Source of the DNA: Branchiostoma lanceolatum
Taxonomy: Eukaryota; Chordata; Leptocardii; Amphioxiformes; Branchiostomatidae
NCBI RefSeq assembly: GCF_035083965.1
Contig: NC_089739.1
Location: forward strand, 9,412,001 to 9,476,000
Length of the DNA stretch: 64,000 nt
Direction: 5' to 3'
Shown: one piece after another, positions 25,422 through 64,000 of the stretch
Numbering within the stretch: the first letter of the stretch is position 1
Layout: each line of letters begins with the position of its first letter
Notes under the pieces: model-generated
Database searches by the model: none
Seen by the model: the letters and a program-made list of their open reading frames with translations, nothing else
Told to the model about the DNA's origin: nothing
Program-made: the position numbers and the translations under genes

Positions 25422-26126
25422 TTAGTCTTTTAGTCTCCGTGCAACATCATCCAGACCTTCTTGTTTCAAAGCTTGAGTAAGAGCAGCCAATGTTGCACTC
25501 TCACCCTTCTGCTGTTTCCACTTCCGAAGCATCTGGTATACCTATTATTAATAAAGATAAGATGGGTCAGTTGTTTTAAGTTGAATGTGGAGAAATAATC
25601 TATAATACATTATCAAACGGTTTCTATTCCAAATTCACCACAAATTTAGAATTTCTGCAAAAAAAAGGCACAAAACGTTTTCTTTCTTATAACAGTCTTG
25701 AGGCAGAAAATATCATTCTATAGTTCCATGTAAAACCAATGAATATCCCATCAATATATAGGAGTAGGTTTTTGCATCTTTGAAATGCTTTCGATGAGAC
25801 AAAACCTCAAAGATTTTTTTTTCTGCATGGAGTATATAATCATTTATTTTATGAAAACACAGTTTGAAATTCCACATTACATGTAATTAAAATTAATTCC
25901 AATCTTGAAATTAACTTTGACCAATGACACAATATATAATGTCCCCCCTTTGACATAAAATAGTGCATGTTTACCTTTTCATCTAAAGCCTTGTCTCTGT
26001 GATCATGGTCAACACAATCAATCTGTCCATCTGTTAAGCCAAGTAAATCTGCAACTTTCTTCCACTTTGAACCGACATGTTCTTGGATTTCTTGAAAATC
26101 CTCTTCAGTGACAGCTCTTGTGGTGT
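25422..26126 (-). CDS. Exons 29-30: C-terminal Death domain
   Basis: Exons 25975-26126 and 25422-25541, in phases 1-0 and 0 to stop, 90 residues. Seen: VTEEDFQEIQEHVGSKWKKV, ADLLGLTDGQIDCVDHDHRD, then YQMLRKWKQQKGESATLAAL and GLDDVARRL, ending LKD and TAA. All six helices of a classical Death domain, including W-x4-G-x2-AT-x3-L, are recognisable. Confidence 0.92.
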
Positions 26127-29100
26127 CTGCCCAAGAAGATGTTCAAGTCAGCAAGTGCTACTTTAGCTCACATTTTCTCTGTCACTCATTAGTGTGTATA
26201 CAAATAAACATGCATTTACATACAGTACACAGTCAATAATCAAAAGCGAAGAGTTAAGATACAGAAATCAATGATTTGCCACCTTTATGAGGTAGCTGAA
26301 TATCACAAGAAGGAAATCTATAGCAAGGGGGTATACCAGGGCATAGAAGACACATGTACATTAACAATGTTGTTTTTGGCGACGCCTCAGGGGCGAGCCA
26401 AATTTTTACTATATTGTGTGCAGATTGCAAGAATTCTAGGAATTGTACAGGAATGTGAAAGTCCATGGGACGATAACTCAAGAATACCTAAATGTATTGT
26501 CTTCATATTTTGTAGGTGGGTAGGTCTGTGGGAGACTTGGTAACGATTGGATTTTGGGGCCCCTAGCGACTTTCTATGGTACTGCAGGAGAACTTTCATT
26601 TTTCAAATCTCGTCTTCTGAACATGCTATAGTCATGATTTTTAAGTGGTAGATATCTCTTTGTTAGGATAATATGTCCTGTAGATTTGGACCCCCTAGCG
26701 GCTTTTTTTGGAACTGCAGGAGCTGATTTTGACTCAAACTTTGAAAGAGAATAACGCAAGAAGGGGATGACGGATCATCATAATTTTTTGTGTGTAGATA
26801 GCTTAAGTGATGATTTACATAATCATATGCCAATTATGCAAATCACTATATGATTTGCATAATTAATGAGGACAGTTAATAGATCAGCTGAATTCTATCA
26901 TAGGACTCTCAAACACATGACATATGTAACTCAGAAAGAGATGAAGATCAATAGATATCAATTATGCAAATTGATACTTAATTTGCATAATTAATGACAA
27001 AATACTATAAATCCATAGTGGTAAATGATGGGGATTTCATTTTTGCACCATTTGGAAGTTTTAAGTAAATGTGGCCACTATTAGGCACAGATCTTGCATA
27101 GAGGGCCTCATTTACATAATTTATGAGGAAATGGTACGATATCTTTTTTGTGAAAACAAGATTTTCATACATTGGACAACTTGTGTTATTTTGGCAGAGA
27201 AGGTGATCGACTGATATGATTTATGCGAGGTCCTTATTTGCATGTGGGCTAAAAACGAAAACGTTAACAGAGACCACCGTCGCCATGGCAACATCTTTTT
27301 ATGTTGCCAATCTTGTTATGAATAGTTTCATCAGGTTGGCCTTAAGTCACTGAGTAAAAAGACCCTTTGTACACAACCAAGTGTTTTATGCAACCTACAT
27401 TTAAGACAAGTGAAGACAGACTGTGTATACAAGATACCTTTCATGACTTGCAACAATGTACACATAGAGGGAGACAGGGACAAATGGTTAATGATTGCAG
27501 GCAGAGGCTGAGAGCATCAATGTGGGATGGTACAAAAAATGTATACACAAGAGCACAGAATAAGAAAGCTGAGATGGAAGAATACTCACTTGAAGCTGGC
27601 ATTGAAGCACTCCCAGCATCCATGTTGTTGTTTGTGCTGTCTGGTCCAGACTGTGGTAAAATGTTCATCACGTTGTAGTCTCCCCTCTGCATGTTTCCCA
27701 CCTCTCCAGCAATGTTAACTTTGCCCATGCTGCTCCCACTGTTTTGAGGTTTTCTATGGCCTGAAAAGAGCATGGTCACTATGAGAAACATCAGATAACT
27801 GGCATTTAACAAACCATTCTTAACTTTCATGAAAACTGATTCATCTGATTCAACTGTTTCAATAGCCTTGTGAGCAAAGTACCTGATTTGTATGTAGTAG
27901 AATGTGGGTTTGATTCCGCAACAGAATCATACGAAAGACTTCTATCTGTGATTAGCACTCAGCACTTAAAAGAAAGTGTATAAGAGTTGAACGCACAAAG
28001 AGTTGACTAGCTTCCTGCAGTAGTGCTTTCACAGCTGTGTGGCCAAAGAGCTATGCAATCACATACATTGTGGAAACAGATGGGTACTGATCTATACACC
28101 ATGATTATGGTGTACAAAAGTACTTTAACTAAAAATCTTACCATCCTTTCCTTGCCGTGTTCCCTTGCTGTGGTCTTTTTTGCTAGGTCTGGCCCCTCCA
28201 ACGTTCATCTCATTGTAATGCCCATCCTGAAGATTTTTGACGCCACCTCCAATGTAGATTTCAGGGCCTTTGGGTGGAGAGTTACTGGTACCTAAATAAA
28301 GAAGTTGCCAAAATCTTAAATATTATGTAGTTCAGAGTAGTACTTTCATTGTTACTTGGAAAAGTTACATAAAATATGAATGAAGACCTTTATTGCACAT
28401 TTCTGCCACACTTGGCTAAGTACAGGTCACAACAAAACGAAAGAACTAGTACAGTTCACGGATACAAAAAGAATATGACTATCTTTAGATATACACCAGT
28501 CTGTTTATTTACATATAATTACCAGAGTATGACGCCCCTACGACCACTGAGGTCATGGGTCATGAGTGAGTGAGTGAGTGATATGTCATAATTGCCCTGA
28601 AGATGATTGACCGACAGTCATTGAAACGTCGGCACTTGTTAAATATAAGCCCCACCTTCAGTTGAAGTGGGCTGGTCTGACCCAGGACCAGTTGAGCTGT
28701 CACTCCGCTCGGCCACCAACTTCTGAATTTTGGCATCCAGCACTGCTTCTGTTGCATCCTCACCATGCCGGGCTCGCCAACACCTCAGCACCTTTGCACA
28801 CAAAGTACAAGCTAATCAGAAGATCTGCTTCAGACTTCCTATTTACTCTTTAACTGACTAGCTGCAAAAGGTTAGAAGATACATGCACATGTAGATATGT
28901 TATATTTCTTTAATGCTATACAACAAAAATTTGGTGGCTCATAATTGCTGACTATAGCATGTGCATGTAAAGTAATAATAATAACTTTATTGCACAACAA
29001 TTGTACAAGGGACAAAGTATGGCATTAACTGGTACATAGATACATATGTAACATTCTATTAGGCTAACCAATCCATATAATACAATATTATGTGGTAGTC

Positions 29101-31513
29101 TATGTAAAGTGTACATGCTACTGACAGCCTATGAGGCAAGTATGTTTTAGAACAAATGATAGTTACATGTATGCAAAATGCACTATTGACAAAAACAGAA
29201 TGATACAGAATTTTCAATATGTGTATTATGAAGTTTTCATGTGCCTGTTCCAATTTCTTTTCAACTTTATGCACAAAAAGGATTAGTATCAATTTAACAG
29301 AAACTAAAAACAAAAATTCAACTGTGTAATTGACAGAAACAGAATGATACAGAAAATTTTGTTACAGATTGAGAAGCAAAATAAGGAACAGCTCACAGGA
29401 AATTCTCTAATTTCATGTCTTTGGCATATACCTCTGCTAGCATGGCACTGAGACCTCCGAATTCGACATGGATATTAGACACCACATCTGATGGAATGTC
29501 GAGCTTTGAGGCCAGTTGTTCCACCAGCTTGGTCCCATCCTCTCCCTCCTTCAATGGACACCTTCCCTTGATGTATTTCACCTTCTGTTGTATCTGATGA
29601 TCAGAAATACCTGCAGACAATATGACGCAAAAATCAAACTTATGATTTGAGATTAAGTTCCAGACCTATAATGCACAAATGCAAATTGCACAATTGACAA
29701 CATCATGATGTCAAAATAATACTAGGTCTTAGCTATAGATGAAATCAAAGCTGTGCACCACATGTATATCATAAACCGTATTTTTGTTGTTAGTCAGCCT
29801 CCTTTGCTGTATGTTTTATAAATGTATTTACATGTACGTTTTGGTTGTTGTCATCGATCACTGGGTCTTGTCAAAATCTATGGCGCAGTGGCTTAAAAGC
29901 AGCAGATGCATGCACTACATAAATTTACATTGTACACAAAAAAGTAAATTGAAACACTTTTCCCCAATTGGTTCAAGATCAAAATAGGTGACTGGCTGTC
30001 AAGTGTCATAGCAAAATTCAGTGTCTGTCATTTGTGTGCACAGCAAGGTTATTATCATCATTGACAACTAAATGTGGCCAAACACCAACTTGAGTTAAAA
30101 TTTGACACAAATAGTTTCAATACGACCTAAAATGCACAAATAAAATAATAATATTCATTTACATGTACAAGTACCCCATTCTCCAATTATAAATGACTAC
30201 TGTAATAGACACATGTATCTACCTCCTGGCTTTGCCAAAGACTTGAAGAGTCTCCTTTCGAAGCCCTTTGTATCTGGGATCAGCATCTGAAAGTTGCTGA
30301 GGATCAAGGGAGTTTGCCCATCAGCCAACTTAACAGGCACAAGTTGCTGGGAGCCAACCTTCACATGCTTATTGAGCATCTCACACAAGAAAGTGGACAT
30401 CCTAAAGGAGGTTTGCCCTTTCCTGTTTTCTTTGATGTTCTTGAGCACATTTTGTGTCAAAAACACCACAGCATGGCGACTCTCTTTCAGCGACTGTTCA
30501 AAAACTTCCATTTGGTCACGCTGGCTGTGATCATATGGATCGCAAAGGGACACTTCCCAAGATTCCAACAACTTTCTGATGTTTCTGACTTGGTCTATGT
30601 CAGGATCATTCTCTTCGTACAAGAGAAGAGCATCATAAGGAAATGATGTCTCTTGGCTCTCTGCAGTTTTGTTTTCTTCCTCACCTATAGGACAAAGATG
30701 AATGACAGATTCAAAAGTACATTTTTCTATTTCATGAATGAATACAATCCAAAGACACCATGAAAATGTATTACTTGGTCTAGAAGATGGTTACTTTAAT
30801 TCATGTTAATTACCTGATTTATCTACGGAGGCTATCTATACTTTTAAGTTGACAAGAAAGTTTAGACCACTTTCAAATTGGGAAAATTGGTGAGCCAGAC
30901 AAGGATGAGAAAGACTTGTGATGTCTTACAAAGTACATGATATTCAAAACAAAAACTATGCACTGATGCTGCATCATTTACATGTAGTATTGTGGTTGAA
31001 ATAAATACAGAAGCCCAGCAGCAAAAGAAACAAAAGCACCCTCAACAGTAATACGTTCAAAAGCAAAATTGAATGTGACAATAGACTATTATAGAGAGCG
31101 GATATAGCATAAAATCTACCTTACCTATCTGTGATAGATTGTTGAATGCAGTATTCTCAACACCGTCATCGGCTGGGGGCCCAGAAACTGAGAGGAAATT
31201 TAAGCATACAGCAAAATATGTTTATCTTAATCCCATTCTATGATCGAAACATCAAGGGAGGGTGCATTGTCCACTTAAATATAAATAGGAGTTCAGAATT
31301 CTGAAGGGAACATAATCTTATCCCTCAATTTTCATATCTTTCAACTCTTTATTATTTTGTTTAAATCAACATCGCAGAAGTACATATACTAGTAGTTCAT
31401 ACAAAAACATGCACTTCTGAATTACTTTGATCTTATACAACATATCTATACACATACACACAATATGACACAACAACAACTATGACGCAGTCTCAATTCA
31501 ATATATTCCATTC

Positions 31514-31546
<33 letters not shown>

Positions 31547-34500
31547 AACTCCTCAGCAAGTGCAAGTATATTTTGTAGCAAGAGTTTTTACAGCTGGATG
31601 CCCTTCCTAACGCCAACCCAAACCCCACTGCTGGGCTTGGCACATGGGAAATATGTGTTAAGTGCCTTTCCCAAGAGAACAACGTCTGGATGCGCGCGTG
31701 TCCAGACATGTCTGGGTACTCCACTGGGGATTGAACCTGGGTCTCATTGGTTCATAGCTGGATGCTGATCTGCCACTATGCCACATAGATGCCGCCAGTT
31801 CTTCGTTGCAACCGACCAGCAGGACGTGTCCATACTCCAGGACGGGGCGGATAAGTGACAAATACACCTGAACCAGATCGGCTACACACATGCCTTGCTT
31901 AGACACAGTAATCTCAAATAATGTAGCCTGCTCAAGGCTTTTAAAACAGTAGACTTCACGTGATCCTGGAAGTCTGCAATTGTCTGTTGTACAGACGGAT
32001 AGTGTAGTGGAGAAATGAGTTATATAATCTGTTGGTCCTAACGTAACATGACCATTTAATGTCCAATTTATTCAAACCGTTATTTATCTTAAAACCGCGC
32101 GGACAGAGCCAAATGTTAAACCCATGGGCAGAAATATAAGCTCTTCTAAAAAGAAAATGCATGGTCTGTAAGTTTTTCTCCGCCTGTTTAACGCCGTGCG
32201 AGCATGTACATGTATTTATACTTGAATGGGTAATTGTGCCAGGCTTACCCATTATCGTCCGCCTCAGAAAATACATAATTGGCGAATGATTAAATGCCAC
32301 TTTCAAATTACTTATTTGAAAGAGAGAGAGAGAGAGAGCAACACCATATTACCTGTAAGTTTATAATGTCTTCACAACTGGCATCACTTTACCTTGCACT
32401 GCAATCTCTGCTTCGGAATCTTCTTTGGATGCATCAATTTCGACATCACTGGGTACTGAAAAAAAACAGAGAGAAAAAAGTTAGCATGAAAGTTCATCTG
32501 TATCTGGCAGAAATCAGTATAAAAAAGGTTCTAAGCCGTAACATCCAACACAAGGATTTGAACTTGCTATGTTGAATGTATCAGTTTAAAAACTTGTTCC
32601 ATAGAAAAGAGGTGAAATTGGGTACCATAGTTACTAAATATATTACATTTTGGCCAGCTTGGAGAAGGTGAGAAATTTCTTTGACAGTGAACAGTGACAA
32701 TTCCTGTGACAAATCTTTTGAAATTGTAGTGTACCCAAATGTTTGAGCATGGCACTGGTGCCCACAAAAGTGTATGGCATTAGCTTCTGTCTTGAACAGC
32801 ATTGGTGCAACATGATAAACTCCCAGCCACTAACATGTGCAGATAAAGTTACATGCTGTATTCTGCATAGGGATTACATTCACGGATTACAAAGAATCTG
32901 ATAAAAAATGCATCAAATATTTGGCTCACAGTCACTTGCAGCTGGCCTGTGATTCTTTGCATCAGCAAAGGCTTGCTTAAGTTCAGGGCGTGTTGCATCA
33001 TCCCCTTTCTCCTTTACCCACAGCTTTACAACCTGTTGAAAGAAAAGTAATTACCTGAGTGTGCATTTAAAAAAACATTACGTATGACAAACCTTTACAT
33101 CTGATGCACTTAGTCTAACTTTTAAAGATATCAGGTAGAGTTCTTTGTATGCAAGACTCAATGATATACTTAAAATAGATTCAGCATACAGTCATGTAAA
33201 TTCAGGTCCTGTTATTCCAGCTTTTGTAACTACAAGTACAACGGTTACTACAAGTCAGGGTTTAAGGCAGTGATTACATTCTTCAATCAAGGCTGCAAAG
33301 GCTTAAAAATCCACATTATGCAACATACATGTATACAAAACATAGAGGTGTACTAAAATACACAATTAAGTTAAAAAGGTTGATTTTGTTTACACTTGTT
33401 TCATTATGTTCCTTTAAGTTCAAATGCTTCTTAGTAAGTTCCTTACATGATGTTTTGCATTCCGTCACAGTAACCTGAATTCCAACCCTTCCAAGACAAA
33501 ATGATACCAGTTTTCTTCCAAAATTTGGCAAAAACAAAAGGAAAAGTCATACACCTAAACTTGCTAAAAATTGTGACACAGGTCAAAATGCAAAACCAGT
33601 TAAACATTTTGTCCTCAAAATTGTTGAGTTTGTGATTGAATGTTCAAATCTAAAATTATGGCTTTAACCAGTATGATGCTTTCCAGGACTTTAAAATCTA
33701 GTTTACAATAATCATTGCAACAGTTTAATGTGATATCTAATCACCACTACATGTACAATCATGATCATCTATAATTTTTTCTTTCATACCTCTTCGAGCG
33801 CCTTCCTGCTTGAGTGTCCTTCCTTGAAGAAGTTTTCAAATGTATGGACGTTCAGCCTCTCAGCTACAACAGTTACAAAGGTCCTGGCTATTACCTCATC
33901 CTTATCAAGGTCACAATCCTTAACCATTTTCATCAAGTTGTTGTATGATGAGGTTTCAGGGGGTTCTGCATCATTGAGTAAAAAAAGAGAAATGAAGAAT
34001 ATCAGTTGCGAAAAGAAAAGTGACACACTAAAGGCAGAAACCTCTTTATAGGAAGAATACCTTATCCTTCAACTCACACCAATACATTTGTAAAACAGAC
34101 AAAAATTATTTATAATTTGCTATCATAATGATAATCTTGATATTATTCTTGAAAGCCCCTTATTCAGTTAACATTTTTCCAAACTTCATTGTCACAGTAC
34201 TTCTAAGTACTTTTTTCTTTCACCACAGTAACTTTAGCTGTTAACTGTTACAGTAATGGAGAGACACATTATTCAGAACTTCTATGCATCAACAAGGGCA
34301 AAAGAAAAATGTGTAAAATCAATTGATAAATCATACCTTCCTCATCATTTTTGACTAACCCAACAAAGTGGTTGGGTTCGGCCGATTCCTCACTAAAATG
34401 CACCAGCATGATCTCCAGCATTGGTCCATTCTCAAGACCTGAGTGGAGCAAAACTTCATCATAGCCTTCCCGTTTGACCTCACAGTGCAGAAGAATGTCA

Positions 34501-40500: not shown

Positions 40501-43500
40501 AGTCTCCCACGAAGCCCCCAGACTCTGTCAATAAGGGACGGAGAGTTTTTGACGTCGCCAACTTCTAATGCATGGTTATCGAAGCTTTTCAGACAGTGTT
40601 CTGAATGCGTTAGTCTGTCAAGTTTGCATTTCTAGCGGTATTACTGATGTTGCATCTAGCACATATCCCTAAATACCCCGTTTTCGAAAAATCCTGAATT
40701 TAAGTACCCCACGAATTTATGTTACCCAACGTTACATCACTACATGCTTGAGGGTATGCATGTATGTATGTGTAGAGGTGGTGGAAAAAAGCTGACCCGT
40801 AAAGACAGTCAACACCATATGTTTACATGTGTGTGTTAGCTTGTGTGTATGCATCACAGTGTTTCTGTTTGTGATAATGTGTCTGATCTGTGTGCATTGT
40901 TTATGTGTGTGTGTGTACTAGTATTTATGTGGATGGGTGTGTATAAGTGTGTGCCTCTGTACTTGTGTGCATGAGAGCATACAGTGTATACACACCAGTC
41001 AATTAATGCTTCAAAACTCATGCTAAGTTGAGACTAAATACATTGGAACTTTAATTGTCAACAAAAGGAAGACAAGCATATCAATCACTTACCTTTTCCT
41101 TAATCATGTTGACAAGATCTCTGTTACTTGGGTCATTGGGGTCCCGTGAGGTGAAAAGAACATTTCCTATCCTTAGGGTGGCATAAAACTGACCAATGTC
41201 TGAAATATACAGAAACTACAGTTCATTTTTATCATTTTCAAGTAATGTCTAAAAGAGTTTAACTATCCGTAAAATGTAGGAAAGGCAAACAAAAGGCAGT
41301 GTTTGGGCAAAGATGCTCTGTCTTCAGTGTTTGAATAGCTTTGTGATTTAAAATGCAGACTGATGCTTTTGGGGGACCTCAAAAGCTTGTTTTGAAGCAT
41401 TTCTTGCTGTTTTTAGAGACATAATAAATGACACACCTGAACCGTAAACCTTAGCATTCGGTGATGGTGATGCATTTTTTTCTTTGTTGGTCCTTGTGGC
41501 AGGTTGTCTGATTGGTACCTCTGCCCTGCCACCTCCACCACTTCCCTCTGATGTTTTGATTAAATTACCACCGTCACTAATATTGTACTCATCTCCATGG
41601 TGATGATGCACATGGTGATCTCCATGGTATTCATTCTTAGTATACGATCCATAGAAATAATTAACTGTTCCTTTGTTGTTATGTATATCAGCAGAGGCAG
41701 CATCACTTCTTTCAGGGTTTGTCTTCAAGTTGTCCTTTTGATTTGAATTTCCTACAAATAAAAAAGAAATTAAAAATAGATATAAAACAAGCATGTAGAA
41801 TATGAATCAAAAGGTTCTGGGCCTCATACAAACACATTGTGCCTCCTTGTGCAGATGTATGATTGTATATCTAATATTCATTTCCTAAAATTCCAATAGA
41901 AAGTCCAGATATTTTCAAAGTTTTTAACCTTATCTTGCTGCCTACACCCACAAGCAAGCAGCTAGCCTAGCAGGTGGGAGGTTAATTTGGCCCTATTTGC
42001 CTTCAAAACTATACTGCCTGCTTTGACATCCTTGTACTCGTTAGCTAGAGGTTGTCATTTATCTACAGAATCTGATACATTACTTACTATGTACACACTC
42101 TGCAAATAAACATGAGACCTTATGCTGTACAAGTATTTGTTAGTTAACAATATGAAATTATTTCAAGTACATGTACATGTATGCTATGTTTCAAAACATC
42201 CATGAAGTCAATTTTTTATCTCTCTTGCAACACATTTGGGGTCACCAAAGGAATCATAATTCATCAAGTTTGTTGGATGTTATCATCATGGTATTATACT
42301 GATTAATGATTATTGCTGTACATGATGTACACTGTAACGTTAACACTCTAAACAAAAATGTAAATCTAATGATGACAATGAACTACCATCACACCATGTG
42401 GTTCAGCATCAACGTCACATCCCAGACCATCCACCTTGACTTTTCCTGCAATCTCATCTTCATCAGTCTCAGAGTCTGTAGATAATGAATTTACACCATA
42501 TGCATGGGTATAGAATTATAAGTCCATATTACATATCACTCACATTATATGTATATCAGATATTTCAACATTTCAGCATATCCCCTTGCTCTACAGACAT
42601 ATGCTCTAAAGTGAATATTGTCATAAGAGGTAAACACTTGATAAAATTGAATTGAAAATGTATCAGAAACAGACTGAAAATCTGATATTTCATAGCAGAA
42701 TCTCTTTGAAATTTCTGATTTAAGGCTTACAATTGGATATTATCAACATTCATTGAGTAACAAGCTAACATATACCTGTACCAGGACTTGCTGTAGCAGA
42801 CAACAAAGGAGTTTTGCTGGTTGGACTAGAGACATCTGCAGTGGAGAAAAACATGTACATCACAGTTACACGTACTTTCAGACTGAAGACTTTTTGTGAC
42901 TGACACATATATGACAAACTAAGCATCTATGCAGCATCAATTATCCATTTCATGCATAATTATGGTGAAGATGGAAAACAATAAAGACTGGTTCCAAATG
43001 GCATTTCAGCATTGACTATTTTCCTTGATGGCTTATTCTTGTCCAACTCAAACCTAATATCTGAACATTCCAAATTTGTATGACAATGAGACAAAACTTT
43101 TCGGACATTCCAAAATTAGTCAGATAACTTTGTGGATATGTAAGTTGTGATAGACATCTAATTCCAACAATGAAGTAATAATATTGCCAAACTCCTACCT
43201 GGGGTGTTCCCAACAGTGTCTGGAGCAGGTGGAGATTGAAGAGGTATTTCTTCTTCCTCTTTCTTTCTTTCTGCTGCTAAAACAAACAAAACAGAAAACA
43301 AACTTTACTGATTTTGTTTAAAAATACACATAAAAACACACAGTACAATGCATTCAAAATCATGCATGTATAAGCAACATATGTTATAAAATAGATACTA
43401 CTGGCCACAGAGAACTTTTCAGTCTGAAATCTGTATACTAAAAACATATACTTAGACTTGCGCCTTGCAAAAATGTATAGTTTGTGAATGAAACGTTTTC

Positions 43501-46500
43501 AAATTTTGTGAAATTTTGCACTGTTCTATTAGCCTCCATTGCAGTCCTTTTCCCCGCGGCGTTTTTTTTTTAAATTTTTTTTTTGGGGGGGGCGCCGCGT
43601 ATCTGCTTGGGATCCCGTATCCGCCGTGCCCCTGTGTCCGCTATAGACCCTGTGTCTGCTGCCCAGCGGTACTGTTCTATAGGGGTAGAGAGTAATTACC
43701 ATCCCGTTCCACATCCCTCTGGGCTCGATTGTCACTTTGAGACCATGGCCAGGTGTTGAATCTTTTGGTTAAACAACCAATGACTCCAATGGTAATATAT
43801 ATGGCTACAAGAATGCCAATAACCATGACTGCTATTGCTCCAGGGTGTATTCCAGATCCTGAAAAAAAATGGAAGAATTTAAAGCCATCCAACAGTGCAA
43901 AAAATCTTTGGTCTGAGAAATACCCAGGACATGGCCAGAGATTTGATTTGTTGGATGATGATCTGGAACCCAGACCTCAACTTTTTAGTTAGTAGCACAA
44001 AAATAGAAACAAATGTAATGGTATCATATTAATATATTTCATATCATACAGATTACAATTATAAATTATGTGTCCATTTTAACAGTTTTATCAATAACTA
44101 CATTGGTTCATGGTTGGTACAAGGTAGTTTTATAAAGTGATCCCATGTCTAAAGTAAAATCATACAATATGTACTAAAATTGTAGGTGAACTAAATTGTA
44201 TGTTTAAATACATTGTATATGTCATGAATTAATACTAGCAATGCAGCTATCAATATTTTCTGTTATAGTTTTGATTGTTCTTACCGGTACTTTTCTGTGC
44301 TTCCATAGTTGCAGCCACCTCAATATGTGAGTAACTTTCCCCGAAGCGATTGGAGGACACCACCCTGAAGTTGTACCTGACACCCGGACTCAGACCCTCC
44401 ACCGTAGTCTGCAGGTTTGTGAGGCTCGAGTTATGCTGGAGTCTGTCTGTCTGATGCCATCCGCCATTCAAGATAAGTCCTGATTAGAAAAAATGGGTAT
44501 TCAACATTTTTTGTAATTGTACAAATTAGCATTGTGCCCAAATACGCTAGGTACAAGTTCTTAGAACGTGAGATCATATTATGGACTAACAAGGCAACGG
44601 AAGACTTCACCAGCTTGAGCTTACACATGATGATTTACAACCATTTCAGTCAAAATAAATAGCACTGACACTGTATTGCACATATGCATTCTACACATAC
44701 ATACATAAACACTCACACACAAACACACACACACACAGACACACACACACACACAGACACACTTGTACGTGTACACACCCACACCAAAAGCCTACTCACA
44801 TTTCATCAACATTCTGGCTTATAGTTATAGTTATACATGCAATTATACTGTGACCCACATGTAAGGTCTCAATGAAATGTGTGCACCAGATTAAAACCTT
44901 ACCTGTCTCTCTGTATTCCACAGAGTAGTTGACAGGTGCAGAGTCTAATGGTTCCACCTGCAGCCAGGTGACGTTAGCAAAGTCCTCTCCAACACCAGTG
45001 ATGTTAAATGAAGACACAGCAAGTGGAGGAGCTGCAAGTGAGGAAATAAGATAAAGGTGAACCATGGATATTTCCCTGTCTAATATCATCACAACTGGAG
45101 AAAGTACAATTTTTGCAGCCACCTAAGTTAAGTGCCATGATACATGTAGAATACAAAGAATCCTCTTTATGATGTAAGATCCTTTAGAAAATTGCATGTA
45201 GTTAGATGTACATATATGTGCATGCTGTTATACATTTTATTTTAAGCACCTGCATTCCTGCAATGCTGGTATGTTGATTGATTTTAACAGGGCTTGAAAT
45301 ACTGGGTGCATGCCTGGTTGTGCACATAATTTTGGACTGTGGGTGCACTAGGGCAACTTCATATTTGTGTGAAGACTTGTAGACTTGCCATACTCTCTCG
45401 AGTGGCTGTCAACACATATTTGTGTGAAGGAGAATACATTAACATACTTAGTACTATTGCACACAAGTGTACAGCATACTATTGACAAAAGAGATCATTA
45501 TCGACTTAAACGCAAACATTTAATTCTAACAATAGTCATGTCAAATGCTGCTGTACATGTAGTAAAACAATTAGAACAAATTACTGCAAAAATAAGCATT
45601 AGAGCAATATATATGAGTAGCAAAACTTCACTGTAGAGATATGACAACTAAAGCGCAATCCCATCAGAGAAGGGATCTTCCAAGGGCCAGTGAAGTCATG
45701 TATATGTAAATTACCTTCGCTATTGTCTCAGCCACTTGATTATGTATCAATCACAGAGCAACCTAGACTTCTATCCATCAGTGAAAGAAGACAGGAGAAG
45801 AAAACATAGAAAGAAGAAAAATATGGCATCTATAAAAGATCTACGCAAATCTCGTCCTAGTCTCGTGAGACTAGGTCACTCTGTGAACAAGATATACACT
45901 GGACGTCGAAAATTTGGAGGTACGTGTTTGTTACCTTTAATATATGTCACTGATTGAAGAATATTCTAGTAACTATCAATAAGTGTAACGTTGCATTAAG
46001 AGCAAAACTATTCTTTTAGGTACAGCTTTATAATTTATATTTCAGTACTTGAAATACCCGGTTGCGCCTTTGCATCGCGCAATCACTGTTTGCTTGGTGC
46101 AACATAGTATTTGTAAACTCATTGTCAAAACTCGCTTGGGTAGTAAAACAATTTGAACCGAGGATGCTCACACACACACACACTATCACTCTCCTAAAAT
46201 ATGGTAAATTTTTAATTGAAACACAGATATCAACACCTTTTCATTCTTAATCATCTAAAACCCTTCATACTAATAGATTGTGAAATTATTTGAGCTGACA
46301 CCTGATAAGGAAAAATACACATTCAAGTATTCAGGATTTCTGGTACTCAACTGGATATACCTTATTCTGTAACTACTATATAATAAGTTCTTTTATTTTT
46401 GCGATAGGAGTGGAAAAGAGGTTTTCGCAACATTTTAAGTTCATTTAGTTATTACAATGAATGTTTAGCAAAACTTGCTCTTGAGGGGATAACGTTTATA

Positions 46501-49500
46501 TATGAAATCATATTGTGACCTAAGGTCTCAATGAAATGTGTGCCCCTGATTAAAAAACCTTATTACCTGTCTCTCTATATTCCACATAGTATGTAACAGG
46601 TGCAGAATCTAACGGTTCCACCTGCTGAAAGGTGATGTTAACCCTCAAACCACCGTATGGGGTCAAAACTGACCCCAAGCGCATATCAACATGTGCCATT
46701 TTGACATTTCGTGTCGAAAACAAAATTCCTTCTATGAGTTTGTTTGTATATATGTCTTATAACTTCTCACAAGTTTTTACCGAGATTGGCTCATTGTTGA
46801 TTAAGTTATCGTAGAAAGTTTACGCATGGTCCAGTGGGGTCAAAATTGACCCCAGCAAAATCTGCACTCATATTCCCTATTGTTTGATACTTGTCATCTA
46901 GTAACATTTATGATAAGGGTTATTATGATCATAGTTACAAAATATAATTTTGTAGAAACGCGAAAAAAATATTTTTCTTCAATGAACGTAAAAATTAATC
47001 ACGTTGCGACGTATTATGACGTCATTTATGTGATTTTATTGACGAAAACCTACAAATTGGGTATTTCCGTATTATTCAAAGGTACACGATAAAACTTATA
47101 TAGAAATTATGTATGATAAATCATACTATATCCAAAGACGTTATTTGTAGATGGCAACGGGAACGACGTCAAAATGACGTCATAAAAATTATATTCATAT
47201 CAAGTTACACTAGGGAAATCCGCCATCTTGGTTCCGCCATCTTGAATTATTTTGAATGCATTTTTTCATCATATAACCTAATAACACAATAAAAATGGAC
47301 CAAAATGTTTATATTAAGATTGTTTCTGTTTGAATAAACATGGTAATGATGAAATTTGAGGTTGAAATAGCCGGTTATAGCTAATCTATTTACATCGTCC
47401 GCCATCTTAGATTTTGACCGATGACGTAATCAAATATGCATAAATTAAGAATATCAAGTCATTAAAATGATAGTGAATTAAATTGGTTGGTATTGATGTA
47501 ACAAAATAAGTGCAGTTTAAAAAGACAGCCCTAGAATTACATTGTAAAATCCAAAAATAGCAACTTTTTCCAAATATGGCTCTAAGAAACCGGTTGCCAT
47601 AGCAACATGAAAACATTGATTAGATATTTCATTAAATTAGAATTGTTGCCAACAAAATTTTAGCAAAGGTGACCAAGTTTGGTTGTTCTAGCGTAAGCCA
47701 TTCAGATGCTATATGACATCAAGTGTTGGCGCAGGCCTCAAAAGAGCCCGCTTTTCTGAATAGCGTAAGTTGCAAAAGACGATGTTCCCTATTTTTGCAT
47801 AAATTATGATAATGAGCAAAAATTTTTCATACCTAATCATGTCAAACTATCCCTTATAGATTACTTAAACTATACATATATACAAACCACAAAAATAGTC
47901 ACCAATAAAGCTATATTTGTAGAAAACATTGTGGGGTCAGTTTTGACCCCATACGGTAAGATTAGTCGTAAAAAAGCTACGGTGGTTTGAGGGTTAACAA
48001 AGTCCTCTCCAACATCATTGATGTTGAATGAAGACACAGCAGGTGGAGGAGCTGCAAGGAAATAAGATAAAGGTGAATCATGGATATTTCCCTGTCTAAT
48101 ATCATCACAACTGGAGAAAGCACATTTTTTGCAGCACCTAAGTTAAGTAAGTACATGAACATTACATGCCAAGATACATCATCTTTATGATTATGTAACA
48201 TTCTTTAAAAAAAATGCTTGTCCTAGTAGTTAGATGCACATATATGTGCATGCTGTTATACATTTTGTGTTAAGCAACTGCATTCCTGCAATGCTGGTAT
48301 GTTGATTAATTTTAACAGGGCTTGAAATACTGGGTGCATGGTTGCGCACTTTTGTGCACCCAAAATTGAAGCTGACTGTGCACATAATTTTGGACTGTGG
48401 GTGCACCAGGGCACCTACATATTTGTGTGAAGTAAAATACATTAACATACGTATACTATTGTCCACAAATGCACAGCATACTATTGACAGAAGAGATCAT
48501 TAACGACTTTAGCGCAAACATTTCATTCAAACAATGGTCAAGTCAAAATGCTGCTGTACATGTAGTAAACCAATTAGAACAAATTGCTGCAAAATACATT
48601 AGAGCAATATATATGAGTAGCAAAACTTCACTGTAGAGATATGTATGACAACTAAAGCACAGTCCCAACAGAGAAGGGATCTGCAAAGGGCCTGTGAAGT
48701 CATGTATATGTAAATTACCTTCACTATTGACTCAGCCACTTGATTATGTATCAATCACAGAGCAGCAGTGACTTTTATCCATCAGTGAAAGAAGAAGAAA
48801 ACACAGAAAGAAGAAAAAGATGACAGTATAGTTTCTTTCCATTATCAATTTACATTTGTATAGATCATCATACTAGTATGATCAAAACATATTTTCGACA
48901 TCATAATTTCATGATGGAGACGCTCCACAAAAATAAAGCCACTGCCAACATTTAAAGATTCACAGTCATATGCATGTATGTTCTCAGTACTAAATGAAGT
49001 ATAACTAGACAGCATTAATAGTATAAACACTGGACATTAAAGGAAATGTCATTTCCTCACCTTTGATATTTGGGCAAAATCTTTGTGACTTGTTTTGAGA
49101 CTGTTGGAACTCGTAGCAGACACCTGGCCCTGTATCATCCGTTTGAAAGTCTTTTATTTGAATGGTGATAGTATTAGTATTTGGATCATATGTCCATTCC
49201 ACCCGATCCTCCAATGCTGGGTCTTCAATCTTTGGTTCTCCTGGAGGGGTCCCTGAAATAACAGAGTTGTGTAAATTTTCTATCTTGGTTTATCAGGGTT
49301 CTATCCAGTATTTGATATTAGCATATTAGTAATGGCAAGGTAGTGAAGTGACCAAGCGGTGTAGTCTTGGCCCTTAAGCTTGGACTGTGATGCCATTATG
49401 AAAATGTAAGGTAAAAACGTTTTTTAATGGTACTCATGGGAGAAGATAATTCTTTTTTAGACCACATTCAAGATTATTCTAGGAGGATATTTTGTCATTT

Positions 49501-50253
49501 TGGAGAGTCATATCAACATCTTTCACATTTGACTCGACATTACTACACAAGTAAATACTAGGAAAGTAGCGTGGTGGTCCTCAATGTACATACTTGAAGC
49601 CTGGAGGTCGCAAATGATAGTGTGGTGTCCCCATATGCTAAAATGTTAAAGAAAAAGTGAAAACCACAAAAAAGCATAGATAGACATATATGTAATACTG
49701 ACCCAAAGAGACAACAAAAGAAGTAATAACAGCTTACCGGAGGTCCATGCACTCCAATGCAGCAATTCAATCGTCGCTGTCACTGACCCTGGCTCTGACC
49801 CTGGCTCCAATTTAATCAGAAGCATCTCTTTCGTGTCCAATGGACGAAACGTAATAGTCATTACACCCCCAACTGGAACTGTAATTAATGTAAAGAAAAC
49901 AAGAAAAGAACTTGTTTAGTACACTAAAGCATCTGCCTTGTGTTTAAAAGTTAATTGACAAATATATGATATCTGTTTTAAGGGATCAAGCCTACATCAA
50001 CTTGATCAAGGTCACTTTCACACTAGTGGGTATTATGCCCCCCCCCCCCAAACACACACTACCAAACACACACATACACGCACTCACATGCATACACACG
50101 GATACAGTGACATGCTAACACACATATGTATGCACACTGACACACACACATTGTAACATTACATATACATACACACACACACACACATACATGTACACAC
50201 ACACACACACACATACAGTGTAAGTTACACACACACACACACACGCACACATG

Positions 50254-50285
<32 letters not shown>

Positions 50286-50742
50286 ATCTCCGAGTAGATC
50301 ATGGACATATACTGATGATAAAGTTGGCCAAACCAAGGAGGTTAACCTCCTTGGCCAAACAGTATCCTTGGCCCTAGCCGCGGCAACTGTTGGAGGGCAT
50401 CTCTAGCTTGAACAGTTAGTTTCTGCAGGTATAATCTTGCAGCCTTAGTACACTAACCCTATAGGGTTAACGTAACGTTATAAAACTGCAAGCAAGAGAA
50501 GCCCTCAGACTCAGAGCTAGAAACAGTCGCCGCGGCTACCTTGGCCCGATACTGTTTGGCCAAAATAATGGATACTACAGTACGATCCCTTGCCACCGTA
50601 TTATCTGCTTGGAGATCGAGATTAAAGAAGCACACTGCAAATCTGTAAAATTTTACGCACCGTCCAACGTCTGGTCCTGGCCCATTGACAGACAGCAGTA
50701 CACCAGAATAGAAAAGCCCGCCAAAAAAGCATGTTTTGCCAT
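25422..50742 (-). CDS. Giant type I receptor: Ig/FN3 ectodomain, OTU-death-TIR-death-RHIM-Death tail (1478 aa)
   Basis: Thirty minus-strand exons total 4437 bases (divisible by three) with no in-frame stop. Residues: signal peptide 1-21; Ig-like 28-138; FN3 139-246; TM about 252-277; linkers and His-rich segment 278-477; SEA/ferredoxin-like 478-581; linker to 687; OTU 688-878; death fold 879-971; TIR about 1014-1167; death fold 1168-1281; two RHIM-like motifs 1282-1388; Death domain 1389-1478. All junction phases agree. Inferred role: an innate-immune or cell-death receptor whose single tail has TIR, amyloid-type RHIM, Death and ubiquitin-editing modules. It lies head-to-head with the Ig-Death receptor at 52941. 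Main doubt: two adjacent genes could look like one because most introns are phase 1. A second doubt is the exon 9 donor (GTGTGA), which is weak. Confidence 0.75.
26380..27420. repeat. AT-rich repeated region in intron 28
   Basis: Two similar blocks with GCCCCTAGCG/CCCCCTAGCGGC and GGTACTGCAGGAG/GGAACTGCAGGAG, then repeats of ATTTGCATAATTAATGA. It ends with a fragment of the CAGGTTGG...CACAACCAAG family also seen at 18150. No exon found within. Confidence 0.5.
27590..27760 (-). CDS. Exon 28: RHIM-like amyloid signalling motif 2
   Basis: 57 residues, phase 1-1: KVNIAGEVGNMQRGDYNVMN followed by I, the same pattern as exon 27 (I-x-G-x-V-x-N-(L/M)-Q-x-G-x-Y-N-x-M-N). The rest is polar. Two consecutive exons with one motif imply exon duplication. 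The donor CAA|GTGAGT leaves A, which completes Asn in the Death exon. Confidence 0.7.
28142..28291 (-). CDS. Exon 27: RHIM-like amyloid signalling motif 1
   Basis: 50 residues, phase 1-1: EIYIGGGVKNLQDGHYNEMN followed by VGG, then a basic tail (KKDHSKGTRQGKD). Q-x-G-x-Y-N-x-M-x-V-G-G matches the core of RIP homotypic interaction motifs ((I/V)-Q-(I/V)-G-x-x-N-x-M), except that the residue between Q and G is Asp rather than hydrophobic. The flanking I-x-I-G-G-x-V resembles the wider RHIM/PP amyloid family. Confidence 0.7.
28585..28640. repeat. GAAACGTCGG-type repeat tail
   Basis: CTGAAGATGATTGACCGACA followed by GTCATTGAAACGTCGG, a small stem. It resembles the CACCGAAACATCGG segment at 18257 and is likely the 3' end of a dispersed retroelement. 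Not a canonical hammerhead core. Confidence 0.4.
28656..29610 (-). CDS. Exons 25-26: second death-fold domain
   Basis: Exons 29397-29610 and 28656-28783, in phases 1-2 and 2-1, 114 residues. Seen: KLVEQLASKLDIPSDVV, FGGLSAMLAEVYAKDM, then LCWRARHGEDATEAVLDAKI, with the same W-x4-G-x2-AT signature as the first fold. The acceptor TGCTGAG|GTGTTGG is the only one that keeps frame. It costs one residue before the Trp relative to the other copies, so this junction deserves caution. The end is Ser/Thr/Pro-rich. Confidence 0.7.
30223..30684 (-). CDS. Exon 24: TIR domain
   Basis: 154 residues, phase 1-1. YDALLLYEENDPDIDQVRNI is the box-1 strand, then WEVSLCDPYDHSQRDQ (the BB-loop region; the typical RDxxPG is altered), SLKESRHAVVFLTQNVL (strand D) and FLCEMLNK, which places a Glu in the alpha-C position. 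Then LVPVKLADGQTPL and FERRLFKSL. The fold is clear. Whether it signals through adaptors or cleaves NAD cannot be told from sequence alone. Confidence 0.85.
31125..32455 (-). CDS. Exons 22-23: short acidic linkers
   Basis: Exons 32393-32455 and 31125-31187, each 63 bases, phase 1-1: PSDVEIDASKEDSEAEIAVQ and SGPPADDGVENTAFNNLSQ. They are disordered acidic spacers between death fold and TIR, and being symmetric they could be skipped in frame. Confidence 0.7.
31517..31805. repeat. (TC)n microsatellite followed by SINE-like copy
   Basis: (TC)n at 31517-31544 abuts a minus-strand SINE-like copy. Its reverse complement contains CAGGTTCAATCCCCAGT (B-box-like), TTGGGAAAGGCACTTAACAC and GGAAGGGCATCCAGCTGTAA, as in the element at 22225. 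Confidence 0.55.
32930..33965 (-). CDS. Exons 20-21: first death-fold domain
   Basis: Exons 33790-33965 and 32930-33032, in phases 1-0 and 0-1, 93 residues. A helical bundle: NNLMKMVKDC, VIARTFVTVVAERLNVHTFE, SSRKALEEVVKLWVKEKGDD and ATRPELKQAF. The W-x4-G-x2-AT-x3-L ending is the Death-domain helix 5-6 signature shared with two later modules of this protein. Donor GACT|GTGAGC. Confidence 0.75.
34337..36139 (-). CDS. Exons 17-19: OTU-family cysteine protease (deubiquitinase-like)
   Basis: Exons 35968-36139, 35317-35512 and 34337-34540, in phases 2-0, 0-1 and 1-1, 191 residues. GNGDCLFNAVSLLL carries the catalytic Asp/Cys (Cys about residue 708); HATLLRLGAS and the helical middle follow the OTU pattern. 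MLEIMLVHF, then AEPNHFVGLV, gives the catalytic His (about 868). All core residues are present, so activity on ubiquitin chains is plausible. OTU inside a receptor tail is unusual. Confidence 0.88.
36533..38221 (-). CDS. Exons 14-16: linker and helical segment before OTU
   Basis: Exons 38162-38221, 37660-37748 and 36533-36702, in phases 1-1, 1-0 and 0-2. A polar linker (PKTPELSSGGQGQDNRQ, TSAPPDNNDEPQK) is followed by amphipathic helices (NLLEEKLEEIFHI, LLKVLKDVDDWALFRQCCDF) and LPGLNKLTAQDL. No family recognised for the helical part; it may belong to the protease domain. Confidence 0.7.
36902..37570. mobile_element. SINE-like element (reverse) split by an insertion
   Basis: 37440-37570 is the reverse complement of the 5' half of the element at 22225, and 36902-37025 of its 3' half. 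About 430 unrelated bases (37026-37440, rich in TTGCAA) separate them. This is a nested insertion in an intron. Confidence 0.55.
38585..41199 (-). CDS. Exons 11-13: SEA/ferredoxin-like alpha-beta domain
   Basis: Exons 41093-41199, 39337-39395 and 38585-38730, in phases 1-0, 0-2 and 2-1, 104 residues. Seen: FYATLRIGNVLFTS, NMIKEKLNKLL, EVTDIREGSVKVTVLFRG, then a helix and GNLADIGVDP. The order beta-helix-beta-GSVxV-beta-helix fits SEA, which is normally extracellular. Similar GSVxV alpha-beta modules occur next to death/NACHT domains in cytosolic invertebrate proteins (TRADD-N-like). The GSVKV site differs from the GSVVV autoproteolysis motif. Identity uncertain. Confidence 0.6.
39650..40736. 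mobile_element. Terminal-inverted-repeat element in an intron (about 1.09 kb)
   Basis: Ends TGTAACGTTGGGTAACATAA at the left, with the exact reverse complement at the right (about 40710-40736). Both continue with AATTC and a GGATTTTTC.GA segment. It is non-autonomous; the frames inside it show no transposase features. No clear target-site duplication is visible. Confidence 0.75.
41437..41751 (-). CDS. Exon 10: His/Gly-rich segment with possible RHIM-like motif
   Basis: 105 residues, phase 1-1. The centre reads GTVNYFYGSYTKNEY, then HHVHHHHGDEYNISDGG, then an acidic/Gly run and a basic tail. G-x-x-Y-N-I near a Gly pair loosely resembles the RHIM-like exons 27 and 28 of this gene, but lacks the Q-x-G core, so it may be unrelated low-complexity sequence. 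Confidence 0.65.
42395..43276 (-). CDS. Exons 7-9: juxtamembrane linkers
   Basis: Exons 43199-43276, 42776-42835 and 42395-42475, all phase 1-1 and short. The sequence is polar and disordered: AAERKKEEEE, SPPAPDTVGNTP, SSPTSKTPLLSATASPGT and DSETDEDEIAGKVK. Such small symmetric exons could be skipped without changing frame. The donor of the last one (CATG|GTGTGA) is weak but is the only one that keeps the frame. Confidence 0.65.
43700..43858 (-). CDS. Exon 6: transmembrane segment
   Basis: 53 residues, phase 1-1: GSGIHP, then AIAVMVIGILVAIYITIGVI, then CLTKRFNTWPWSQSDNRAQR. One hydrophobic helix followed by Lys/Arg fixes the C-terminal part as cytoplasmic. Confidence 0.9.
44285..45031 (-). 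CDS. Exons 4-5: fibronectin type III domain
   Basis: Exons 44903-45031 and 44285-44479, phase 1-1. Seen: APPLAVSSFNITGVGEDFAN, VTWLQVEP, YSVEYRETG, VEGLSPGVRYNFRVVSSNRF and SYSHIEV, the complete FN3 signature with B-strand Trp and the LxPxxxYxxxV motif. It ends just before the membrane. Confidence 0.9.
44700..44780. repeat. CA microsatellite
   Basis: Imperfect (CA)n with ACACAGACAC variants in the intron between exons 4 and 5 of the receptor gene. Confidence 0.8.
46567..48051 (-). pseudogene. Duplicated FN3 half-exon broken by a transposon
   Basis: A copy of exon 4 with intact acceptor (CTTGCAG|CTCC at 48051) and donor (CAG|GTAATA at 46567). Before the insertion it would have encoded APPPAVSSFNINDVGEDF and, after it, QVEPLDSAPVTYYVEYRETG in frame. 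A piggyBac-like element of 1352 bases at its TTAA site adds an in-frame stop, so normal splicing must skip it. Confidence 0.85.
46642..47993. mobile_element. Non-autonomous piggyBac-like element
   Basis: Flanked by TTAA at 46638-46641 and 47994-47997. Perfect 16-base terminal repeats CCCTCAAACCACCGTA. A 19-base subterminal repeat TGGGGTCAAAACTGACCCC is placed asymmetrically: directly after the left terminus and 26 bases inside the right one. A third internal copy lies at 46835-46854. CCC/GGG ends with TTAA targets and asymmetric subterminal repeats are piggyBac traits. No transposase frame is present. Confidence 0.9.
49061..49878 (-). CDS. Exons 2-3: V-like immunoglobulin domain
   Basis: Exons 49738-49878 and 49061-49252, phase 1 at all borders, 111 residues. 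The first half (VGGVMTITFRPLDTKEMLL, HWSAWTSG) matches the first Ig exon of the opposite gene in length and layout. The second half has TITIQIKDFQTDDTGPGVCY, the D-x-G-x-Y-x-C-like F strand. The usual B-strand Cys is absent. Confidence 0.7.
50041..50280. repeat. Poly-C and CA/CATA microsatellite (intron 1)
   Basis: A C10 run at 50040-50049, then (CA)n broken by CATACA and ending in TATATATA. Confidence 0.85.
50333..50354. repeat. 22-bp perfect palindrome
   Basis: CCAAGGAGGTT followed by its exact complement AACCTCCTTGG. TTGGCCAAA flanks both sides, extending the symmetry. It lies in intron 1 of the minus-strand receptor gene. Confidence 0.8.
50661..50742 (-). CDS. Exon 1: signal peptide
   Basis: The minus-strand ATG at 50742 encodes MAKHAFLAGFSILVYCCLSM then GQDQTLD: Lys/His start, hydrophobic core and small residue before the cleavage site. 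Donor GGACG|GTGCGT, phase 1, as in the neighbouring receptor's first exon. Confidence 0.8.
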
Positions 50743-52940: not shown

Positions 52941-53019
52941 ATGACTGCCGTGAGAATGGTAGTGCTGTTTGGAATCCTCCTTTTCCTTAGCTGCTGTGCG
53001 CATGGCGAGGATGTCCAGG
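52941..53019 (+). CDS. Exon 1: signal peptide
   Basis: MTAVRMVVLFGILLFLSCCA, then HGEDVQ. A classical secretion signal with probable cleavage after CCA or AHG. Donor CCAGG|GTAGGT, phase 1. The second Met (residue 6) could also start translation. Confidence 0.88.
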
Positions 53020-63358: not shown

Positions 63359-64000
63359 GTAAGATTAGATAAACGTAGTAAGGTTAAGAAGGTCATACGA
63401 CACAAAGCTATAGATAAAGCGGTTGCTTGGTTCGGCGAAAGATGATATGATAAGGTCAGAATGACGATGATGATGTTGATGATGATGATGATGATGTTGT
63501 TGTTGATGATGATGATGATGATGATGATGTGGTTCCTCCTGCGTTATGACCCATCCGAGTTGACGCCCCTAACTGAAGATATGTACTTGTTTTTAACTGA
63601 GTACAATGATGAAAATTGGTGTGAAGTGCCTCAAGTTCCCAAGAGCACGGCATTTTCATGCTAGGTATTCGAACCCAGAACCTTTAGATTCTCAGTCAGC
63701 TACCCTAAAGCCTCCGTCACAAATAAGAAATTCGGCTCGGCCGACGTGTTGGCGAGCTTTGAATGTGCATTTTCGGGCGAAGTGCGGCCGACGTCCTGTC
63801 GATTACGCGGGCTTCGGGGAAATTTTTAGAAATAAAAGTTGATCCAAATATTGGCCTTTTACCAGGTTAGTCGATACTAACTTCGTCCATGTCCATGAGA
63901 TGGTACCATCTCATGGGGGATTTTTAGTTTTTAGAGTTCGACGGACGTCGACCGAGATTTTCATTGGAAAATACGGTCGACGCTCGGGCGATTTTGAAAT
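63359..64000. other. Intron of the FAM151 gene with repeats
   Basis: No exon recognised to the end of the window. It contains a GATGAT microsatellite, and at about 63610-63700 a SINE-like fragment (GTATTCGAACCCAGAACC, reverse B-box-like). Confidence 0.5.
63457..63530. repeat. (GAT)n microsatellite
   Basis: Trinucleotide GAT/GTT run giving false poly-Met and poly-Ser frames. Confidence 0.9.

Follow-up and report, generated by a model that had tools for sequence, protein, structure and literature searches.

Introduction

In vertebrates, modules for cell death, ubiquitin trimming and inflammation sit on separate proteins. A stretch of 64,000 nucleotides from the lancelet Branchiostoma lanceolatum (positions 9,412,001 to 9,476,000 of contig NC_089739.1; hereafter the window, with positions counted from its first letter) raises the question of whether such modules are joined in a single receptor chain, as a sequence-only reading of its minus strand had proposed. 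Lancelet genomes are known for domain shuffling. Amphioxus has been reported to possess 28 TIR domain combinations, 20 of which are amphioxus-specific, together with "direct connection" receptors that are joined straight to death effectors (e.g. TNFR-caspase) and are in some cases confirmed by cDNA (PMC2575513), and the gain of domain pairs in lancelets has been put at >10 per million years, the shuffled exons being mainly of the 1-1 type (PMC4284660). In the present work, we have rebuilt the gene model in the window and have scanned its predicted product against Pfam, both as a whole protein and as 8 pieces. The Pfam E-values given below are stronger than they look, because all 24736 families are already counted in them and because OTU, TIR, and Death had already been proposed before the scan, with the caveat that this naming came from the same sequence.

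Structure of the 30-exon gene model

The gene model runs on the minus strand from an ATG at 50742 to a TAA at 25422 through 30 exons, all of which are bordered by AG acceptors and GT donors, and the joined exons form 4347 nt (1448 aa) in consistent phase and without an internal stop. The earlier claim of 30 minus-strand exons in consistent phase is therefore borne out by the rebuilt model (50742..25422, AG/GT borders); the length of 4437 bases that accompanied it was not reproduced. The minus-strand gene itself is real. Independent proof of the model is provided by the match of its C-terminal Death domain, which spans an intron (Pfam E 3.7e-19).

For an assessment of the individual exons, codon usage was trained on 1139 codons from the other genes of the window (viz. 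the divergent neighbour and the stretches encoding fibrinogen and lectin domains), and the coding score of each exon was judged against open stretches of equal length from the introns of the 30-exon gene itself. The score lies at or within the top 5% of these stretches for 20 of the 29 testable exons, exon 24 being left out of the count because the draw yielded no open intron stretch of matching length. The exons outside the top 5% are 1, 6, 8, 10, 11, 12, 15, 29, and 30, and the lowest score (0.326) is that of linker exon 10. When the splice sites were ranked against unused dinucleotides by leave-one-out scoring, 28 of 29 donors came within the top 10% of the GTs and 25 of 29 acceptors within the top 15% of the AGs, figures that are partly circular since the matrices derive from the model's own sites; the weak sites are the acceptors of introns 16, 17, 19, and 25 and the donor of intron 21.

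Exon 9 is the single uncertain exon of the model. Its 57-nt form creates a TGA at the junction and its 89-nt form breaks the frame, and both were rejected, so that the exon is either 48 nt long (42475..42428, with a weak donor) or skipped, the frame remaining intact either way. A further candidate exon of 76 nt (34930-34855) was discarded, because its inclusion would put exons 18 and 19 out of frame with each other. All along the gene, the modules begin at phase-1 introns, and exons 2-10 are all of phase 1-1; phase-1 module borders are a feature that the gene has in common with the exon shuffling reported for lancelets (PMC4284660).

The receptor part and the duplicated exon

The signal peptide, the single transmembrane helix and one FN3 domain are solid elements of the N-terminal part. 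Exon 1 (50661..50742) contains the ATG and encodes a hydrophobic signal peptide (aa 1-27; Kyte-Doolittle mean 1.45 over aa 2-20), exons 4-5 (45031-44903 and 44479-44285) encode the FN3 domain (aa 139-246; Pfam fn3 E 6.3e-9), and the transmembrane helix (aa 255-273) is found in exon 6 (43700..43858), where the Kyte-Doolittle mean of 2.88 over 19 residues is the highest of the protein. Five N-glycosylation sequons are present in aa 28-254 vs 7 in aa 274-1448. The FN3 match and the hydropathy profile thus agree with the FN3-containing type I receptor that had been claimed, and it is the immunoglobulin part of that claim that needs to be reduced. Exons 2-3 (49878-49738 and 49252-49061; aa 28-138) encode a degenerate V-set-like part, whose V-set match covers only 33 residues (E 0.029 for the piece and 0.14 in the whole-protein scan). 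The ectodomain has Cys residues at 120 and 134 only, and an intact immunoglobulin domain with its canonical Cys pair was accordingly not found here.

A feature that the earlier reading had missed is a second copy of exon 4, the first FN3 half-exon, at 48051. The duplicated block is 82.5% identical over 885 positions, and the copy (46565..48051, minus strand) is split by a 1360-bp element (47997-46638). This element has inverted ends and is flanked by TTAA at either end; its longest open stretch is 80 codons, and we take it to be a TTAA element of piggyBac appearance. A duplicated exon that holds a transposable element may be read as a sign that the whole gene is decaying, its tail modules degenerate and its protein non-functional, and such decay would also accommodate OTU, TIR, and first Death domain matches under the curated Pfam thresholds and RHIM-like repeats that lack the tetrad (see below). 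Against this stand the persistence of an intact copy of exon 4, the run of 1448 codons without a stop, and the coding-like codon use of 20 of the 29 testable exons, and we regard decay as quite improbable.

Death domains of the tail

The C-terminal Death domain is the most securely identified module of the tail. It is encoded, together with the TAA stop, by exons 29-30 (26126-25975 and 25541-25422) and is clearly of the RIPK1 type by its alignments: a search of PDB sequences returned RIPK1 at E 2.7e-16 and 61.7 bits, 32 bits ahead of the next protein, followed by THO complex subunit 1 (29.5 bits), FADD (28.5 bits), and TRADD (27.4 bits). Among viral contigs, 15 stretches fit the pattern of this domain and none was confirmed as a relative.

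Two additional Death domains had been claimed for the tail, making three death-fold modules in all. Death domain 2 (exons 25-26; 29610-29432 and 28791-28656) reaches 22.0 bits vs the Pfam cut-off of 22.6 (E 1.9e-4), and Death domain 1 (exons 20-21; 33965-33790 and 33032-32930) is a weak match that does not reach the cut-off (13.1 bits, E 0.11). The local alignments of domains 1 and 2, 1 and 3, and 2 and 3 were equalled by only 3, 1, and 1 of 1000 shuffles, respectively, and each domain is split by a phase-0 intron located ahead of a conserved Trp, by 4 residues in domains 1 and 2 and by 7 in domain 3. Because of these shuffle-tested alignments and the shared intron placement, there is good evidence for domain 2, which is probably a genuine Death domain, and moderate evidence for domain 1, which we infer to be one. 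Of the three modules claimed, one is therefore clear, one likely, and one weak.

The OTU-like domain

Exons 14-19 (38221-38162, 37748-37660, 36702-36533, 36136-35968, 35485-35317, and 34540-34337) encode a linker (exon 14) followed by an OTU-like domain. The Pfam OTU match of the piece has an E of 0.016 and 16.1 bits vs a cut-off of 23.3, and in the whole protein the E is 0.17. The best PDB match of this part, which is not significant by itself (E 0.5), is to OTUD7B around the Cys box, the sequence TTGNGDC being aligned to TTGDGNC of OTUD7B. Cys696 in this box and His847 in the sequence PNHF are 151 residues apart. In A20, Cys103 and His256 are reported to be 153 residues apart, and the third catalytic residue is given as either Asp70 or Thr97 (PMC10284599); in the present protein, too, a Thr is found 6 residues before the Cys. 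The domain thus shares with the A20/OTUD7 deubiquitinases a TTG-x-G-x-C box like that of OTUD7B and nearly the same Cys-His spacing, and it differs from them in that the OTUD7B match falls short of significance and zinc fingers were not found in the Pfam scan. An OTU identity is a weak but coherent assignment for this part, and an A20/OTUD7-like layout is plausible. The previous description of an OTU protease with all catalytic residues is correct as regards the Cys and the His; it goes too far as a whole because no third catalytic residue could be assigned. Six stretches from viral contigs fit the pattern of the OTU part and none of these was confirmed.

The TIR-like domain and the RHIM-like repeats

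An acidic linker encoded by the phase 1-1 exons 22-23 (32455-32393 and 31187-31125) leads to a TIR-like domain (aa 993-1146) that is contained entirely in exon 24 (30223..30684). Its match to TIR_2 (E 0.02 for the piece) covers positions 8-102 of the 122 of the profile (78%) and does not appear in the whole-protein listing. No PDB sequence match was obtained with this piece, and its single-sequence fold was unusable (mean pLDDT 46). The TIR that had been placed in the tail thus corresponds to a weak match of one piece, and a TIR identity may be assigned to it on weak but coherent grounds.

Exons 27-28 (28291-28142 and 27760-27590) encode two tandem repeats (LQDGHYNEM and MQRGDYNVM), which are recognized by their mutual likeness (0 of 1000 shuffles as good) and which both keep the spacing Q..G..N..M. 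Two RHIM patterns were tested, viz. the tetrad (V/I)-Q-(V/I/L/C)-G and the motif [IV]Q[ILV]GxxNx[MLI], and neither is present anywhere in the 1448-aa protein; a looser pattern, Q.G..N.[MLI], is seen twice vs 0.04 expected. No Pfam family was found in this piece, and a PDB sequence search with the repeats gave nothing usable. What remains of the two RHIM-like motifs proposed earlier is a pair of tandem repeats in the position of a RHIM, lacking both the core tetrad and the published motif. That they lie just before the RIPK1-type Death domain is an argument for taking them as derived RHIMs; in lancelets and in the zebra mussel, RIPK1 homologues are themselves reported to keep the tetrad (PMC12119088). 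A third RHIM-like repeat in exon 10 was considered and rejected, since 507 and 950 of 1000 shuffles did equally well.

A SEA- or TRADD-N-like domain behind the membrane

Exons 11-13 (41199-41093, 39395-39337, and 38730-38585) encode a domain (aa 467-570) that was absent from the earlier description. Pfam matches this piece to SEA (E 0.023) slightly ahead of TRADD-like_N (E 0.075), and a PDB sequence search with it gave nothing usable. Read by eye, its product follows the order beta-alpha-beta-beta-alpha-beta with GS (aa 524-525) in the middle turn, where SEA domains also carry a GS-type motif. TRADD-N is described as an RRM-like domain with a tiny-residue-Ser (u-S) motif in the turn between strands 2 and 3, which often adjoins domains of the Death superfamily and has expanded in Branchiostoma (PMC8195603). 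The domain found here appears to have a similar u-S-like turn and shares its chain with Death domains, and it differs from the TRADD-N proteins in a match that is below threshold (E 0.075) and in the company of proposed OTU and RHIM-like modules, the terms "OTU" and "RHIM" being absent from the main text of that report (PMC8195603). The scores do not decide between the two families. TRADD-N is the better guess because the domain lies on the cytosolic side of the transmembrane helix in a chain that also contains Death domains, whereas a SEA domain is expected to be extracellular.

One gene or two

Between the helix and this domain lie four linker exons, and it is here that the unity of the gene has to be decided. 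Exons 7-9 (43276-43199, 42835-42776, and, with the uncertainty noted above, 42475-42428) encode an acidic and proline-rich linker and are all of phase 1-1, and exon 10 (41437..41751; 315 nt open, phase 1-1) encodes a His/Gly-rich linker that joins the receptor to the tail. Since exons 2-10 are all of phase 1-1, skipping of exon 9 or 10 would leave the reading frame from the receptor to the tail intact.

The same interval could instead contain the border of two adjacent genes on the same strand, viz. a small Ig/FN3 membrane protein that ends after one of exons 6-8 and, starting in the vicinity of exon 8 or 10, a cytosolic adaptor of the order OTU-Death-TIR-Death-repeat-Death. From an in-frame ATG at 41794 the frame stays open into exon 10, ATGs at 42926-42854 open into exon 8, and a read-through of exon 6 would stop after ~7 more residues; moreover, the coding score of exon 10 is the weakest of all, and a SEA-type domain, if real, would sit on an unusual side of the membrane in a single chain. 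However, exon 10 has the second-best acceptor of all 29, and the extension from ATG 41794 runs through the polypyrimidine tract of that acceptor. Candidate first exons are no commoner before exons 7-11 (1, 1, 4, 4, and 1, respectively) than before the other exons tested (0-6), successive exons from 6 to 11 are at most 676 bases apart, and the neighbouring gene model is itself of the Ig-TM-Death type. Neither AATAAA nor ATTAAA occurs between 45241 and 41055, an interval for which the intron rate of 1.29 per kb (26 in 20162 nt) predicts ~5, an argument that is weakened because the accepted stop is likewise followed by none until 23525.

On balance, we consider a division into two genes to be rather unlikely. 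The exons probably belong to one gene, and the receptor and the tail are likely to be carried on one transcript. Phase continuity, phase-1 borders, and an interval free of AATAAA and ATTAAA are most simply read as one type I receptor that contains OTU, TIR, and Death modules, as claimed before; its OTU and TIR modules are weak matches, and the ATG at 41794 would permit a second gene. For the most part the architecture is the one that had been claimed, with several of its labels less firm.

Relationship to known systems and a proposed mechanism

The C-terminal portion of the protein resembles RIPK1 in having a Death domain of the same type with repeats in the RHIM position directly ahead of it. 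It differs in that no kinase domain was found in the Pfam scan, in the location of the tail behind a receptor, an OTU, and a TIR module, and in repeats without (V/I)-Q-(V/I/L/C)-G. RIPK1 homologues have been defined by an N-terminal kinase, a C-terminal RHIM tetrad, and a Death domain (PMC12119088), and with neither a kinase in the Pfam scan nor a tetrad the protein falls outside this definition; ordinary RIPK1 homologues are reported to be also present in lancelets (PMC12119088). The gene also resembles TRIF/TICAM1, in that its TIR-like domain has repeats at the RHIM position farther along the chain. Like the domain-shuffled TIR and Death genes of amphioxus, it recombines these domains with others, with more modules per chain, and the term "OTU domain" does not appear in the available text of the report on those genes (PMC2575513).

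Among the matches listed in our literature searches, none describes by title or abstract a receptor that combines OTU, Death, TIR, and RHIM-like modules, and no literature joining an OTU domain, a death domain, and amphioxus was found. The single-chain receptor had been said to appear undescribed, with which the listed matches are compatible but which they do not prove; even if undescribed, it would not represent a new kind of protein, because new TIR and Death combinations are common in lancelets (PMC2575513, PMC4284660). Its kind is the known one of the domain-shuffled invertebrate immune receptor, and what would set it apart is that an A20/OTUD7-like OTU and a kinase-less, RIPK1-type tail stand together behind a receptor.

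With moderate confidence, we favour the reading that one gene, assembled from shuffled exons flanked by phase-1 introns, encodes a type I receptor with a kinase-less RIPK1-like tail carrying an A20/OTUD7-like OTU, and that this protein acts as a pre-assembled death-receptor complex. Through its small ectodomain (a V-like part and one FN3), the receptor would bind a ligand or partner and would thereby become clustered. The kinase-less tail would constitute the pre-assembled complex, in the order TRADD-N/SEA-like domain, A20/OTUD7-type OTU, Death, TIR, Death, the pair of repeats at the RHIM position, and RIPK1-type Death. Clustering could nucleate oligomers of the Death domains, and perhaps of the TIR and the repeats, which might recruit FADD-, TRADD-, or RIPK1-like partners and lead to NF-kB activation or cell death, and the OTU might restrain the complex from within by trimming the ubiquitin attached to it. 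In favour of such a tail, RIPK1 C-termini without a kinase (from lizard, lamprey, and zebra mussel) have been reported to switch on NF-kB when placed in human cells, in a RHIM-dependent manner (PMC12119088). The tetrad on which that activity depended is absent from the repeats of the present protein, which counts against our reading. Also to be set against it are the OTU (E 0.016), TIR (0.02), Death 1 (0.11), and V-set (0.029) matches, which are all under the Pfam cut-offs.

A more specific proposal, which we offer only tentatively, is that of a self-contained and self-limiting membrane receptor, in which one chain unites a RIPK1-like output without a kinase (a Death domain and two divergent repeats of the amyloid type) with an A20/OTUD7-like deubiquitinase and with TIR and TRADD-N-like modules. 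In vertebrates A20 acts on RIPK1, and the enzyme would here be fused with a relative of its vertebrate substrate. If a single transcript is produced, the gene would be a natural fusion of an A20-type OTU with a RIPK1-type tail and would provide independent evolutionary evidence that places ubiquitin editing and RIPK1-type assemblies in one circuit. It would also offer a compact system in which assemblies driven by Death domains, by the TIR, and by the repeats could be separated by deletion of modules; the RHIM-like repeats offer a test of signalling without the RHIM tetrad.

The neighbourhood in the window

A divergent gene model of 10 exons (52941-58861, plus strand) starts 2.2 kb from the 30-exon gene in a head-to-head orientation. 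It encodes a signal peptide, an N-terminal part, an Ig domain (E 3.1e-9), a transmembrane helix, a Ser/Thr-rich linker, and a Death domain (E 5.5e-6), and its intron 5 has a GC donor. Its Death domain is similar to Death domain 3 of the 30-exon gene (0 of 1000 shuffles as good), and its likeness to domains 1 and 2 is unclear (50 and 139 of 1000, respectively). Homology between the N-terminal parts of the two ectodomains was not detectable (912 of 1000 shuffles as good). The presence of two TM-Death receptors head to head suggests a small receptor locus. An intron of the neighbour contains a long four-base GGAA/TTCC repeat (about 54150-54330), and self-comparison of the window revealed a tandem array at 15125-15646 with a unit of ~62 bp. 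On the plus strand at 6161-9297, a fibrinogen C-terminal domain (E 4.9e-71) lies near two C-type lectin domains (E 1.2e-22 and 4.5e-22), the two lectin stretches being 78% alike in DNA, and a Menorin domain (E 6e-20) is found on the same strand at 63012-63362.
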